In this document: positions 14,908 through 20,715 of the stretch, piece by piece
Layout of the letters: every line of letters begins with the position of its first letter
Position numbering within the stretch: position 1 is the stretch's first letter
From: Caulobacter sp. FWC2
GTDB lineage: Bacteria; Pseudomonadota; Alphaproteobacteria; Caulobacterales; Caulobacteraceae
Length of the DNA: 64,000 bases
Reading direction: 5' to 3'
Assembly: GCF_002742625.1 (NCBI RefSeq)
Contig: NZ_PEBF01000001.1
Coordinates: 806,001 to 870,000 of the forward strand
Notes under the pieces: generated by a model
The model's database searches: none
What the model saw: the letters and a program-made list of their open reading frames with translations, nothing else
What the model was told of the DNA's origin: nothing
Translations under genes and position numbers: made by a program

Positions 14908-15318
14908 ATGGCCGACTATGAAGTTTACGACTCCCCGACGCCGATCGAGGCCGGCTTCAAGTGCTGCTGCCCGCGCTGCGGCGAGGGAAAGCTGTTCGGC
15001 GGCTTCCTGAAGCTGGCGCCGAAGTGCGACCGCTGCGGCCTCGACTACAGCTTCGCCGATCCGGCCGACGGTCCCGCCTTCTTCGTGATGAGCGGCATCG
15101 GCATCGTGGTGATCGGCGTCTTCGCCTGGGTGGAGGTGACCTATCACCCGCCGCTGTGGGTGCACCTGGTCACGGTGTTCCCGGCCTTGATCATCGGCTG
15201 CCTGGCGACCCTGCGCCCGGTGAAGAGCTGGCTGGTCGCCTCGCAATATATCAACAAGGCCGAGGAAGGCCGCTTCGAGAGCCTGGGCCGCCACGACTTC
15301 GACTCGCGGCGGCTCTGA
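14908..15318 (+). CDS. DUF983 membrane protein
   Basis: A 136-residue protein with two Cys pairs near the N terminus (CPRCGEGKLF at about residues 19-28 and CDRCGLDY), resembling a small zinc ribbon. Two hydrophobic helices follow (SGIGIVVIGVFAWVEVTY and LVTVFPALIIGCLATL). This is the DUF983 pattern. Family function is not established. It starts at ATG 14908, 33 bp beyond the MocR-type palindrome, so control by that regulator is likely. Confidence 0.82.
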   Translation: MADYEVYDSPTPIEAGFKCCCPRCGEGKLFGGFLKLAPKCDRCGLDYSFADPADGPAFFVMSGIGIVVIGVFAWVEVTYHPPLWVHLVTVFPALIIGCLATLRPVKSWLVASQYINKAEEGRFESLGRHDFDSRRL

Positions 15319-15329
15319 GGGGCTGGGGG

Positions 15330-15788
15330 TTAAACCCCCAGCGTCCCTGCGACCTGACGCGTGGCGGCGTTCAGGCGGTTCCAGACATTGATCGCCGAGA
15401 TGCTGATCAGCAGGCCGGCCAGCGCCTTCTCGTCATAGTGACGGGCGGCCTCGTTCCAGACCTCGTCCGACACCGGGTCGGCCTTGTCGGCGACGCGGGT
15501 CACGGCTTCGGCCAGCGCTAGCGCGGCGCGTTCGGCCTCGGTGAAGTAGGGCGTATCGCGCCAGCCGGCGACGGTGGCCACGCGTTCAGGGCTCTGGCCG
15601 GACTTCAGCGCGGCGCGAGCGTGCATCTCCAGGCAGACGCCACAGCCGTTGATCTGGCTGACGCGCAGGTGCAGCAGTTCGTGCAGGGTCTCGGGCACGC
15701 CCTCGACATGGGCGGACTTGGACAGCGCCATCATCGCCTTCATGGCGTCGGGCAGCAGGTAGGCGGGCTGGGTCATCCTGGCTTGCAT
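15330..15788 (-). CDS. Carboxymuconolactone decarboxylase/AhpD-like protein
   Basis: A 152-residue all-helical protein of the CMD/AhpD family. The active-site motif CGVCLEMH (CxxC then His) is at about residues 49-56, the form used by AhpD-type alkylhydroperoxidases for thiol redox chemistry. ATG 15788 has AAGGAGAG five bases upstream, so I prefer it to ATG 15776. The gene is divergent from an ECF sigma factor. ECF41 sigma genes are known to sit beside exactly this class of gene, and an ECF41-like promoter lies upstream of it at 15855-15881. Confidence 0.88.
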   Translation of the reverse strand: MQARMTQPAYLLPDAMKAMMALSKSAHVEGVPETLHELLHLRVSQINGCGVCLEMHARAALKSGQSPERVATVAGWRDTPYFTEAERAALALAEAVTRVADKADPVSDEVWNEAARHYDEKALAGLLISISAINVWNRLNAATRQVAGTLGV

Positions 15789-15819
15789 CGGTCTCTCCTT
15801 GCGGTTTGCTGACGCCGCC

Positions 15820-15846
15820 GGTCACATCCGGCGGCTTGTGTTCGTC
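15820..15846 (+). promoter_or_regulatory. ECF41-type promoter for the sigma factor gene
   Basis: GGTCACA (15820-15826), 16 bases, then CGTC (15843-15846). This matches the ECF41 consensus I recall (TGTCACA-16-CGTC) except at its first base. It points to the sigma gene at 15883 and implies autoregulation with a leader of about 30 nt. Confidence 0.75.
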
Positions 15847-15854
15847 GAAGAGGT

Positions 15855-15881
15855 GACGAAGCCCGACGGAGCGATGTGACC
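15855..15881 (-). promoter_or_regulatory. ECF41-type promoter for the CMD/AhpD-like gene
   Basis: On the minus strand: GGTCACA (15881-15875), 16 bases, CGTC (15858-15855). It has the same two boxes and spacing as the divergent promoter. It faces the CMD-like gene starting at 15788, with a leader of about 60 nt. Confidence 0.75.
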
Positions 15882-15882
15882 G

Positions 15883-16755
15883 ATGCCCCAAGAAAATTAT
15901 CCAGCGGACAAGTTCGAGGCCGCCAGATTTGAGCAGGAAAGGTCGCGTTTGCGCGGTGTGGCCTATCGCCTGCTGGGCTCGCTGCCCGAGGCCGAGGACG
16001 CGGTGCAGGAGGCATGGCTGCGGCTCAGCCGCGCGGACACCAGCAGCGTCGACAACCTGTCGGCCTGGCTGACGACCGTGACCTCGCGGGTTTGCCTGGA
16101 CATGCTGCGGTCGAGGAAATCCCGCCGCGAGGACGCCTTCCTTGACGGCGCGCCCGAGCCGGCCGTGACCGCCGAGGAGGCGGTCGAGCGCGAGACGATC
16201 CTGGCTGACTCCGTCGGCCTGGCCATGCTGGTGGTGCTGCGGACCCTGAGCCCGGCCGAGCGGATCGCCTTCGTACTGCACGACCTGTTCGACCTGCCGT
16301 TCGACCAGATCGCCCCGATCGTCGAGCGCACGCCCGACGCCGCCCGCCAGCTGGCCAGCCGGGCCCGCCGCCGGGTGCGCGGCGGCGACAGTCTCGACGC
16401 CGGCCAGGTGGCGCAGAAGAGCGTGGTCGACGCCTTCCTCACCGCCTCGCGCACCGGCGACCTGGCGGGGCTGATGGCCGTGCTGGATCCGGACGTGGTG
16501 GTCCGCTCCGACGTCCTGGGCGGCGGTGGTCAGGTCCGCGAGCTGCGCGGCGCCGAGAAGGTGGCCAATTTCTACAACGGTCTGGCCCAGACCGCCCGCA
16601 CGGCCCTGATCGACGGCGTGATCGGCGCGGTGGTGGCGCCGCTGGGCCGGCTGACCCGCGTGCTCGACTTCCGTGTCGAAAACGGCCGGATCGTCGAGAT
16701 CTTCGTCGCCGGCGATCCGGATCGTCTGGGCGCCGTCGAACTGGCGATGGTCTAG
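15883..16755 (+). CDS. ECF41-type sigma factor with SnoaL-like C-terminal domain
   Basis: A 290-residue sigma factor. Region 2 spans about residues 15-80 (RLRGVAYRLLGSLPEAEDAV, TTVTSRVCLDMLRSRKSRRE). Region 4 is at about 110-165 (LRTLSPAERIAFVLHDLFDL, FDQIAPIVERTPDAARQLAS). A C-terminal NTF2/SnoaL-like extension of about 115 residues follows (VVDAFLTASRTGDLAGLMAV). This is the ECF41 layout, in which the fused C-terminal domain controls activity in place of an anti-sigma factor. The family's DGGGK motif is here LGGGGQ and its linker motif reads FLDGAPEP, both diverged. The CMD-like gene next door and matching promoters support the group assignment. Confidence 0.88.
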   Translation: MPQENYPADKFEAARFEQERSRLRGVAYRLLGSLPEAEDAVQEAWLRLSRADTSSVDNLSAWLTTVTSRVCLDMLRSRKSRREDAFLDGAPEPAVTAEEAVERETILADSVGLAMLVVLRTLSPAERIAFVLHDLFDLPFDQIAPIVERTPDAARQLASRARRRVRGGDSLDAGQVAQKSVVDAFLTASRTGDLAGLMAVLDPDVVVRSDVLGGGGQVRELRGAEKVANFYNGLAQTARTALIDGVIGAVVAPLGRLTRVLDFRVENGRIVEIFVAGDPDRLGAVELAMV

Positions 16756-16756
16756 C

Positions 16757-17065
16757 CTACTTCAGCAGCGTCTGGCCGCGCCGGGTCAACTCGTCCTTGA
16801 TCTTGCCGGCGGCCATGCCCAGCAGGCCGGGCAGGCTGATATCGAGGCGGGCGTGATCCTCCAGCACCTGGACGACGCCGGTGATGGTCGAGCCCATGGC
16901 CACCGCCGAGAAGTTCAGCACGTCGCCGGCCCAGCTCTGGGTGAAGCCCTTGGCGTCGCCGCCGGGGATCTGGCCGGCCAGTTGCGCCAGGCCCTGTTCC
17001 AGCCGCCGTTTGGCCTCGGCCGCGCCCAGCTGGTGGGGAATGTTGATGCTGACGGTCTTGGCCAT
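16757..17065 (-). CDS. Polyhydroxyalkanoic acid system family protein
   Basis: A 102-residue protein starting at ATG 17063-17065. The pattern IPHQLGAAEAKRRLEQGLAQ followed by an antiparallel-sheet region and a C-terminal KIKDELTRRG helix matches the PHA_gran_rgn family, small proteins named from polyhydroxyalkanoate granule studies. It converges on the sigma gene with a one-base gap, so it is not in that transcript. A role in storage granules is family-level inference only. Confidence 0.7.
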   Translation of the reverse strand: MAKTVSINIPHQLGAAEAKRRLEQGLAQLAGQIPGGDAKGFTQSWAGDVLNFSAVAMGSTITGVVQVLEDHARLDISLPGLLGMAAGKIKDELTRRGQTLLK

Positions 17066-19490: not shown

Positions 19491-20637
19491 TCACGTTGGG
19501 TCGTTAAGGTCGAGGGTGGCGATTGTCTTGGACCGGAAGATGATGTCGTAAACGCCGTCATGGTGGGTATGGCGTAGGGCGATGGTCTTTCCGGAGAAGG
19601 CCTTCGGGACGCGGATCTGGCGGGCGTTGAAGTGGATGCGGCCGTCCTGGACCTTTCGAGGGATATCGTCGGGCCCGTATTCGAAGGGGGCGATGGGCTC
19701 GCGATAGGTCCGCGGGCTGGGCGCGTAGCGTTCGACGGGCGTGGCCATGCCCAGAGCCTCGTGAGGGCGCTGGGTGTTGTAGACCGTCCGCCAGGCGCTG
19801 AGGTGACGGGCGGCGGCGTCGAGGTCGGCGAAGGGCGGTCCCGACAGAGCCTCGGCCTTGAGGGTGCGGTGGAAGCGCTCGTCCTTGCCCTGGGTCTGGG
19901 GGGGGGAAGGGACGTGAGTGGCCCAAGGCGATGTCCTGCTCCAGCAGCCAGACGCCCAGAGCCGTCCAGGTCCGTTCCACGCCCTGGCCCTTCATGCCTG
20001 CGCCCCAGGGCGGGCCGTTGTCGGCGGTGATGCGGCGGGGCAGGCCGTAGCGCTGGAAGGCCTTGATCAGGCTGGACTTCACCGTCGCGCGCTCCTGATC
20101 GCCGCAAGCCTCCAAGACCAGGCAAAAGCGCGAATGATCGTCGAGCACGGTCAGGGGATGCAGGCGTCCGCTCCGGCCATCGAGCGACACATAGCCCTTG
20201 AAGTCCATCTGCCAGAGGTCATTGGGCGCGGCGTGCTCGAAGCGGATAAACGGCGCGGCTCCACCACCGAACCCGCCCAGGGCCACGCCGTGGCGGCGCA
20301 GGATCTGGGTCACGGTCGAGGGCGATGGCGCCTCCAGCCCTTGGCGCCGCAGCACCGCGGCGATCTTGCGTCCGCCCCAGGCCGGATGCTCGGCCCGCAC
20401 CGCTAACACCGCTGCCTCGATCGCCGCCGATGTTGTCCGGGGCGAGCCGCAAGGCCGTCGTGATCGCTCGACCAGCCCGGCTTCGCCCTGCGCCGCGTAA
20501 CGCGACAGCAGCCGATAACCCAGCGTCGGGCTTACCCCGAACCGTCTGCACAGCTCGCGCCTGTTGGCCCCTTCAGCCTGCGCTAGCCGCACGAACTCAA
20601 GCTTGCAATCCATCGCAGAGACTCCCGTGAACGGCAT
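19491..20637 (-). pseudogene. IS481-family transposase, frameshifted at a C9 tract
   Basis: Starting at 20637 after GGGAGG. An N-terminal HTH (CRRFGVSPTLGYRLLSRYAA), a second HTH (GLEAPSPSTVTQILRRHG) and an rve/DDE integrase core (WQMDFKGYV, LTVLDDHSRF, ITADNGPPWG) are read in frame. The frame breaks at a run of nine C residues (G run at 19898-19906). With eight, the protein continues QTQGKDERFHRTLKAE, which contains the catalytic Glu, to the end at 19491, giving about 381 residues. As it stands the catalytic Glu and C terminus are lost. Slippage in the tract could restore some product. The usual His of HPQTQG appears as Pro, which itself lengthens the C run. Confidence 0.85.
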
Positions 20638-20663
20638 CTCCGACCTCCCTTCGAGATCAGAAA

Positions 20664-20715
20664 ATGTGTCACGGATGTCTCCGAACACCTGTCACCCATG
20701 TCTCCGGTCTGAACA
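20664..20715 (-). repeat. IS right terminal inverted repeat
   Basis: 52 bp, perfect inverse of 19431-19482, ending GGTCTGAACA. The first bases of an alternative upstream start of the transposase frame run into it. Confidence 0.9.

Follow-up and report, generated by a model that had tools for sequence, protein, structure and literature searches.

Face-to-Face ECF41-Type Promoter Sites between an ECF41-Like Sigma Factor Gene and a CMD/AhpD-Like Gene in Caulobacter sp. FWC2

Genes and Features of the Locus

In the 64-kb window (the whole stretch of Caulobacter sp. FWC2 DNA that was analysed), a 94-bp gap at 15789–15882 lies between a CMD/AhpD-like gene on the minus strand and an ECF41-like sigma factor gene on the plus strand. 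The two genes and the features of the gap are as follows:

15330..15788, minus strand: CMD/AhpD-like protein, 152 aa, with CGVC as its CxxC motif; the divergent partner (PF02627, 71.1 bits; TIGR00778, 53.2 bits)
15820..15881, no single strand: double promoter, face to face, GGTCACA-16-CGTC-8-GACG-16-TGTGACC, 62 bp (exact sites; spacing 16/8/16 in 28 of 28 distinct composites)
15820..15826, plus strand: −35 box of the sigma-gene promoter, GGTCACA (exact match)
15843..15846, plus strand: −10 box of the sigma-gene promoter, CGTC (exact match)
15846, minus strand: start (+1, a G) predicted for the CMD transcript, giving a 58-nt leader (from the 9-nt rule of Sinorhizobium meliloti RpoE9 and a pyrimidine-purine [YR] step at nt 8/9)
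15847..15854, no single strand: core between the −10 boxes, 8 bp, of fixed length and poorly conserved sequence
15855, plus strand: start (+1, a G) predicted for the sigma transcript, giving a 28-nt leader (same basis)
15855..15858, minus strand: −10 box of the CMD-gene promoter, CGTC (exact match)
15875..15881, minus strand: −35 box of the CMD-gene promoter, GGTCACA (exact match)
15883..16755, plus strand: ECF41-like sigma factor with a fused SnoaL/NTF2-like domain, 290 aa (SigJ subfamily NF007214; Pfam region 2, region 4, and SnoaL_2)

The original prediction had placed one GGTCACA-16-CGTC site on each strand of the gap, and both are found exactly, at 15820–15846 (plus) and 15881–15855 (minus). 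The window holds no other such site; shuffling gives an expectation of 0.03 sites, and none of 100 shuffled sequences contained two. Wecke et al. (2012; PMC3426412) defined the ECF41 promoter as TGTCACA-n16-CGTC and showed in two bacteria that a promoter of this kind is activated by the ECF41 sigma factor. As had been predicted for all but the first base, the sites on both strands share with this consensus six of the seven −35 bases, the whole −10 box, and the 16-bp spacer. The face-to-face arrangement of the two promoters was absent from that prediction and is added here: read from either promoter, the −10 box of the opposite one comes after its own, and the CMD-side −35 box sits between the GGAG (15868–15871) and the ATG of the sigma gene.

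The partner protein has both the PF02627 domain and the CxxC motif of the CMD/AhpD-like family; its nearest solved relatives are 7xw1, 2ijc, and 2o4d. The gene context is that of ECF41 in that a divergent CxxC CMD gene adjoins the sigma gene and, as predicted, no anti-sigma gene is evident, neither the CMD protein nor any of four other flanking proteins having given an anti-sigma-like match in a profile scan. Elsewhere in the window, 19491–20688 (minus strand) holds an IS481-like transposase open reading frame (ORF) with rve and HTH domains and, after it and overlapping it, a second ORF in a different frame; this may be an insertion-sequence copy that has suffered a frameshift.

Placement of the Transcription Starts

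The start mapped for S. meliloti RpoE9, an ECF41 sigma factor, is given as 9 nt after the CGTC of the promoter motif (PMC3616915), and a promoter listing, with no start mark visible in its text, closes with a G nine positions beyond CGTC (PMC6180224). Among 51 non-composite sites, from which coding sequence was not filtered out, a pyrimidine-purine step falls at nt 8/9 in 76%; other steps range from 2% to 39%. The composites have this step in 26 of 28 cases on the plus strand, so that the plus start fails in 2 of 28, and in 28 of 28 on the minus strand.

Applied here, the 9-nt rule combined with an 8-bp core puts each +1 exactly on the opposite box: the ninth base after each CGTC is the G that pairs with the final C of the −10 box on the other strand (15855, plus; 15846, minus). 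Because the opposite −10 box demands this purine, only the preceding pyrimidine counts as independent evidence. The positions are transferred from relatives whose sigma factors retain motifs absent here, and the starts are accordingly predicted ones; they lie 9 bp apart on opposite strands, in one common stretch inside a single element whose pseudo-symmetry is observed directly.

Comparison across Related Loci

Related sigma loci were compared in 105 rows (75 + 24 + 6), some showing the same locus twice. The face-to-face pair occurs in 36 of the 37 rows with a divergent CMD gene and a sigma factor at least 51% identical to that of the window, and is absent from all four rows in which the CMD gene is divergent but the sigma factor is more distant. 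The one exception, in genome G301 (locus L096), has kept the CMD-side site and lacks the sigma-side −35 box. After removal of duplicates, the 36 rows yield 28 distinct composites, carried by Caulobacter, Acidiphilium, and two further alphaproteobacterial families, and the geometry is 16/8/16 in all 28, cores of 0–40 and spacers of 15–17 having been permitted. That spacing should be identical in so many related bacteria suggests that it matters.

The core comprises 17 different 8-mers in the 28 composites and, apart from the pyrimidine preceding each +1, is little kept. Its mean information is 0.72 bits, compared with 1.78–2.00 in the boxes and 1.06–1.17 in the spacers, which are thus more conserved than the core. 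The distance from the element to the CMD start, as aligned by tblastn, ranges from 19 to 64 bp. On the other side, the CMD-side −35 box lies 0–3 bp from the sigma start (1 bp in 22 of 28), a near-constant distance implying that the right part of the element is constrained for other reasons too. The first base of the sigma-side −35 box is G in 19 composites, T in 6, and C in 3.

In a tree of 95 of the 104 rows used for the motif counts below (duplicates and truncated rows excluded), the face-to-face rows all fall on one side of one branch (one change, support 80/93), together with L012 and L096; L012 lies in an unresolved fork among them. The tree is compatible with a single origin followed by conservation, and descent alone could therefore have preserved the spacing, although flank lengths have changed. 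L012, whose sigma factor is 52% identical, carries no such site, and its CMD gene lies upstream and points the same way.

Double sites outside the group number seven, all back to back, with 2, 2, 6, 6, 31, 44, and 47 bp between their −35 boxes. A divergent CMD gene is present at four of the seven; the sites thus run with the genes, as would be expected of promoters. A class-wide search for the back-to-back pattern with exact boxes and two 16-bp spacers gave no match in 385 genomes; looser matching did find such pairs. A match in G148 with a 17-bp core, unlike the 8-bp core found elsewhere, was regarded as chance.

The sigma factor is present in 19 of 75 Caulobacter genomes (E ≤ 1e-60), the other 56 giving no such match; a CMD match (E ≤ 1e-30) occurs in 20, including all 19 sigma carriers. 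The sigma factor was also found in 5 of 150 genomes from the order of G361, and in 12 of 299 genomes sampled across the phylum (E ≤ 1e-55), one of these 12, G846, having the back-to-back form.

L115 (G392) has one TGA within the open frame of its sigma relative, and both of its promoter sites are intact. L013 and L014 (Mycolicibacter) each have a single GGTCACC-16-CGTC site directed away from the sigma gene, with no CMD match there. A GC-rich hairpin (15814–15835) is predicted in the minus-strand RNA of the CMD leader, its loop containing most of the −35 box of the sigma promoter; in 16 representatives, matched arms gave −13.0 kcal/mol versus −11.4 kcal/mol for swapped arms (permutation 0.008, uncorrected for relatedness). 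The hairpin is weak or absent in L114, L116, L118, and L119, and it was set aside as a clade feature because only part of the clade has it.

Sites Elsewhere in the Genome

The original prediction had called for a genome-wide search for GGTCACA-16-CGTC to see whether these two sites are the only ones. The 5.51-Mb genome contains six exact sites. The window pair alone stands clear of coding-like ORFs with one lying downstream; of the remaining four, three fall within coding-like ORFs, and the fourth, which has no downstream ORF, resembles a tRNA T-arm by eye. A relaxed search, with the first base free and spacers of 15–17, gave 16 sites. One of these (L027, G000 C1 4718244–4718268) reads GTCACA-15-CGTC and lies outside coding-like ORFs, 84 nt before a 419-aa ORF that is porin-like by eye. 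With a spacer of 15 and no start-site step, it was rejected as a third regulon member and is probably a chance match.

The Sigma Factor and Its Missing ECF41 Motifs

The domains of the sigma factor, and the residues at the positions of the ECF41 signature motifs, are as follows:

15928..16122, plus strand: sigma region 2, residues 16–80 (PF04542)
16147..16161, plus strand: GAPEP, residues 89–93, at the WLPEP position of ECF41 (alignment)
16228..16374, plus strand: sigma region 4, residues 116–164 (PF08281)
16399..16752, plus strand: C-terminal NTF2/SnoaL-like domain, residues 173–290
16504..16533, plus strand: RSDVLGGGGQ, residues 208–217, at the DGGGK position of ECF41 (alignment)
16711..16728, plus strand: GDPDRL, residues 277–282, at the NPDKL position of ECF41 (alignment)

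The protein has the domain layout of ECF41, sigma2-sigma4 with a C-terminal SnoaL/NTF2-like domain. Its nearest named family is the SigJ subfamily NF007214, with a score of 259 bits that falls below the cut-off of 271. In the Pfam scan, regions 2 and 4 exceed their cut-offs and SnoaL_2, at 25.6 bits, is just short of 27. The C-terminal domain has an NTF2-like fold in the predicted structure, a model with pTM 0.47 and linker pLDDT below 50 whose alignment drew on 40 of the 120 listed proteins plus six loci. By both sequence and Foldseek E-value, the best solved relative is Mycobacterium tuberculosis SigJ (5xe7).

DGGG is a motif of the ECF41 group and was also seen in the alignment here. Motifs were counted in 104 of the 105 rows (those longer than 200 aa), close variants of DGGG(K/R) and NPDKL being accepted. 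WLPEP, which belongs to the sigma2-sigma4 linker, and DGGG(K/R) and NPDKL, which belong to the C-terminal extension, are each found in 0 of 36 face-to-face rows; the corresponding counts in the other rows are 58 of 63 for WLPEP, 60 of 63 for DGGG-like, and 62 of 63 for NPDKL-like sequences. Five further rows lack all three motifs: L012, which retains the near variant WLPDP, L013, L014, L096, and L129. Motif absence is therefore not tied to promoter geometry.

It had been proposed that DGGGK is altered to LGGGGQ and that the brake in the C-terminal domain might consequently work differently. The motif has indeed changed, but the D of DGGGK aligns with D210 (in RSD), and GGG(G)Q is confined to rows 78–100% identical to the window sigma factor, other members of the clade having DAAAVRLG or similar. 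The change is also wider than proposed, since WLPEP, DGGGK, and NPDKL are all absent. In ECF41, contact between a linker motif and NPDKL keeps the protein compact (PMC7730460). In the present protein the fused NTF2-like domain is probably what controls sigma activity, but not through the WLPEP-NPDKL contact, because the motifs are absent. The proteins thus mark a clade of SnoaL-fused sigma factors that would need control without the known ECF41 contact motifs.

Proposed Mechanism and Alternatives

The DNA itself shows the boxes, how they are spaced, and that relatives keep this spacing; on this basis we consider it likely that the 62-bp element acts as an autoregulatory promoter, bidirectional and self-competing, that is read by the adjacent sigma factor. 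RNA polymerase carrying this sigma factor would bind the element in either of two opposite orientations, one giving the sigma transcript and the other the CMD/AhpD transcript. Both open complexes would melt the same stretch of approximately 14 bp (CGTC-N8-GACG). Since the predicted starts lie on opposite boxes and the melted stretch is common to both, initiation should be mutually exclusive, with one polymerase at a time on the element and initiation at one promoter blocking the other. Single occupancy would in turn make autoregulation of the sigma factor and expression of its target both coupled and competing. Such a palindromic element would let a regulator activate its own gene or an antioxidant-type neighbour, one direction at a time.

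The original reading, in which the sigma factor drives both itself and its neighbour, gains comparative support from the presence of both sites in 36 of 37 rows. Its description as a tight self-amplifying switch is unsupported in that form: the face-to-face geometry predicts mutual blocking and hence competition, and we infer that the circuit does not run freely as a switch but combines positive autoregulation with competition built into the promoter.

The best-surviving alternative, which we think unlikely but worth keeping in view, is that two independent ECF41-type promoters overlap by chance, both driven by the sigma factor, with an 8-bp spacing that is inherited and functionless. The placement of all face-to-face loci on one side of a single branch (one change, support 80/93) is what such inheritance would produce, other lineages use back-to-back pairs, and published divergent loci often have promoters at both genes. 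Yet spacer and core lengths are unchanged in 28 of 28 composites while the CMD start lies anywhere between 19 and 64 bp away and part of the core sequence is near-random, and the core length puts +1 exactly on the opposite box.

It is improbable that the sigma factor uses the CMD-side promoter only, its own gene being driven otherwise. G301 does retain the CMD-side site alone, and promoters are commoner at CMD-type genes than at sigma genes in the table of Wecke et al. (41 versus 36 of 55; PMC3426412), but 36 of the 37 clade rows with a divergent CMD gene have an intact −35 box on the sigma side, and no sigma70-like match was found in 15300–16900 by a scan that covers Caulobacter promoters poorly. 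Most improbable of all is that the palindrome is the operator of a separate dimeric regulator: a 62-bp dyad would look the same were it an inverted repeat alone, but high symmetry is confined to the promoter boxes and a few adjoining bases, the remainder being about as symmetric as independent columns would predict; the half-site is a tested ECF41 promoter; and relatives have the same half-sites with flipped orientation and variable spacing, or single sites elsewhere. This limited symmetry led us to rule it out as the main reading.

A further possibility within the self-competing promoter model, which we regard as doubtful, is that in a clade without the intramolecular-brake motifs of ECF41 the promoter itself is the brake, the sigma factor, as its level rises, competing with its own target at the common stretch of approximately 14 bp. 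If so, the two products would be held at a set ratio and runaway autoactivation would be limited. In L012, L013, L014, and L129 the motifs are missing from the sigma factor and there is no such promoter either, which shows that one trait can occur without the other.

Comparison with Known Systems

Divergent ECF41/CMD loci with both promoters have been published, and to that extent the basic reading of the locus is not new: among 55 divergent sigma/COE loci, a promoter was listed at the sigma gene in 36 and at the COE gene in 41, "often both" (Wecke et al. 2012; PMC3426412). The locus resembles those of ECF41 in its SnoaL-fused ECF sigma factor, the absence of an anti-sigma gene, the CxxC CMD neighbour in divergent order, and the same boxes with a 16-bp spacer at promoters on both genes. 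It differs in that the −35 box may begin with any of several bases and in the absence of WLPEP, DGGGK, and NPDKL. The two promoters here are face to face about a fixed 8-bp core, whereas the sections of Wecke et al. that were compared do not give relative promoter geometry, and a literature search at the level of titles and abstract openings named no face-to-face ECF41 promoter pair. As judged from sequence, what is new here is the fixed face-to-face geometry, in a sigma clade without the ECF41 signature motifs.

Fused SnoaL-like domains are also found in groups ECF294, ECF56, ECF205, and ECF295. The closest solved full-length relatives, M. tuberculosis SigJ (5xe7), which is assigned to ECF41 proper, and Streptomyces tsukubaensis SigG1 (ECF56, 7qh5), both have one. 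NPDKL is likewise missing from SigG1, which is opposed by a separate antagonist, RsfG (PMC7730460).

In Pseudomonas syringae hrpJ-hrpL, as here, an ECF holoenzyme at a divergent target promoter affects the gene of the sigma factor itself; hrpL, however, is sigma54-dependent and repressed, whereas both promoters here are of the ECF type (PMC5263251). At the bidirectional promoters of Escherichia coli, opposing polymerases exclude each other and compete once activity is high (Warman et al. 2026; PMC12825309). Like these, the element here would have two opposite-strand starts and would exclude opposing polymerases sterically; its predicted start separation (9 bp) is near that of the 10-bp class. 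The E. coli promoters described there are of the housekeeping type with a common −10 element; here there are two separate ECF −10 boxes, and one of the two genes transcribed from the element encodes the sigma factor itself. The locus would unite self-regulating one-component ECF sigma factors with bidirectional promoters in a minimal natural circuit, one sigma factor reading one 62-bp element for two genes, and the fixed geometry, set beside the same boxes arranged back to back in relatives, offers a natural comparison for the effect of promoter overlap on autoregulation, output ratio, and noise.
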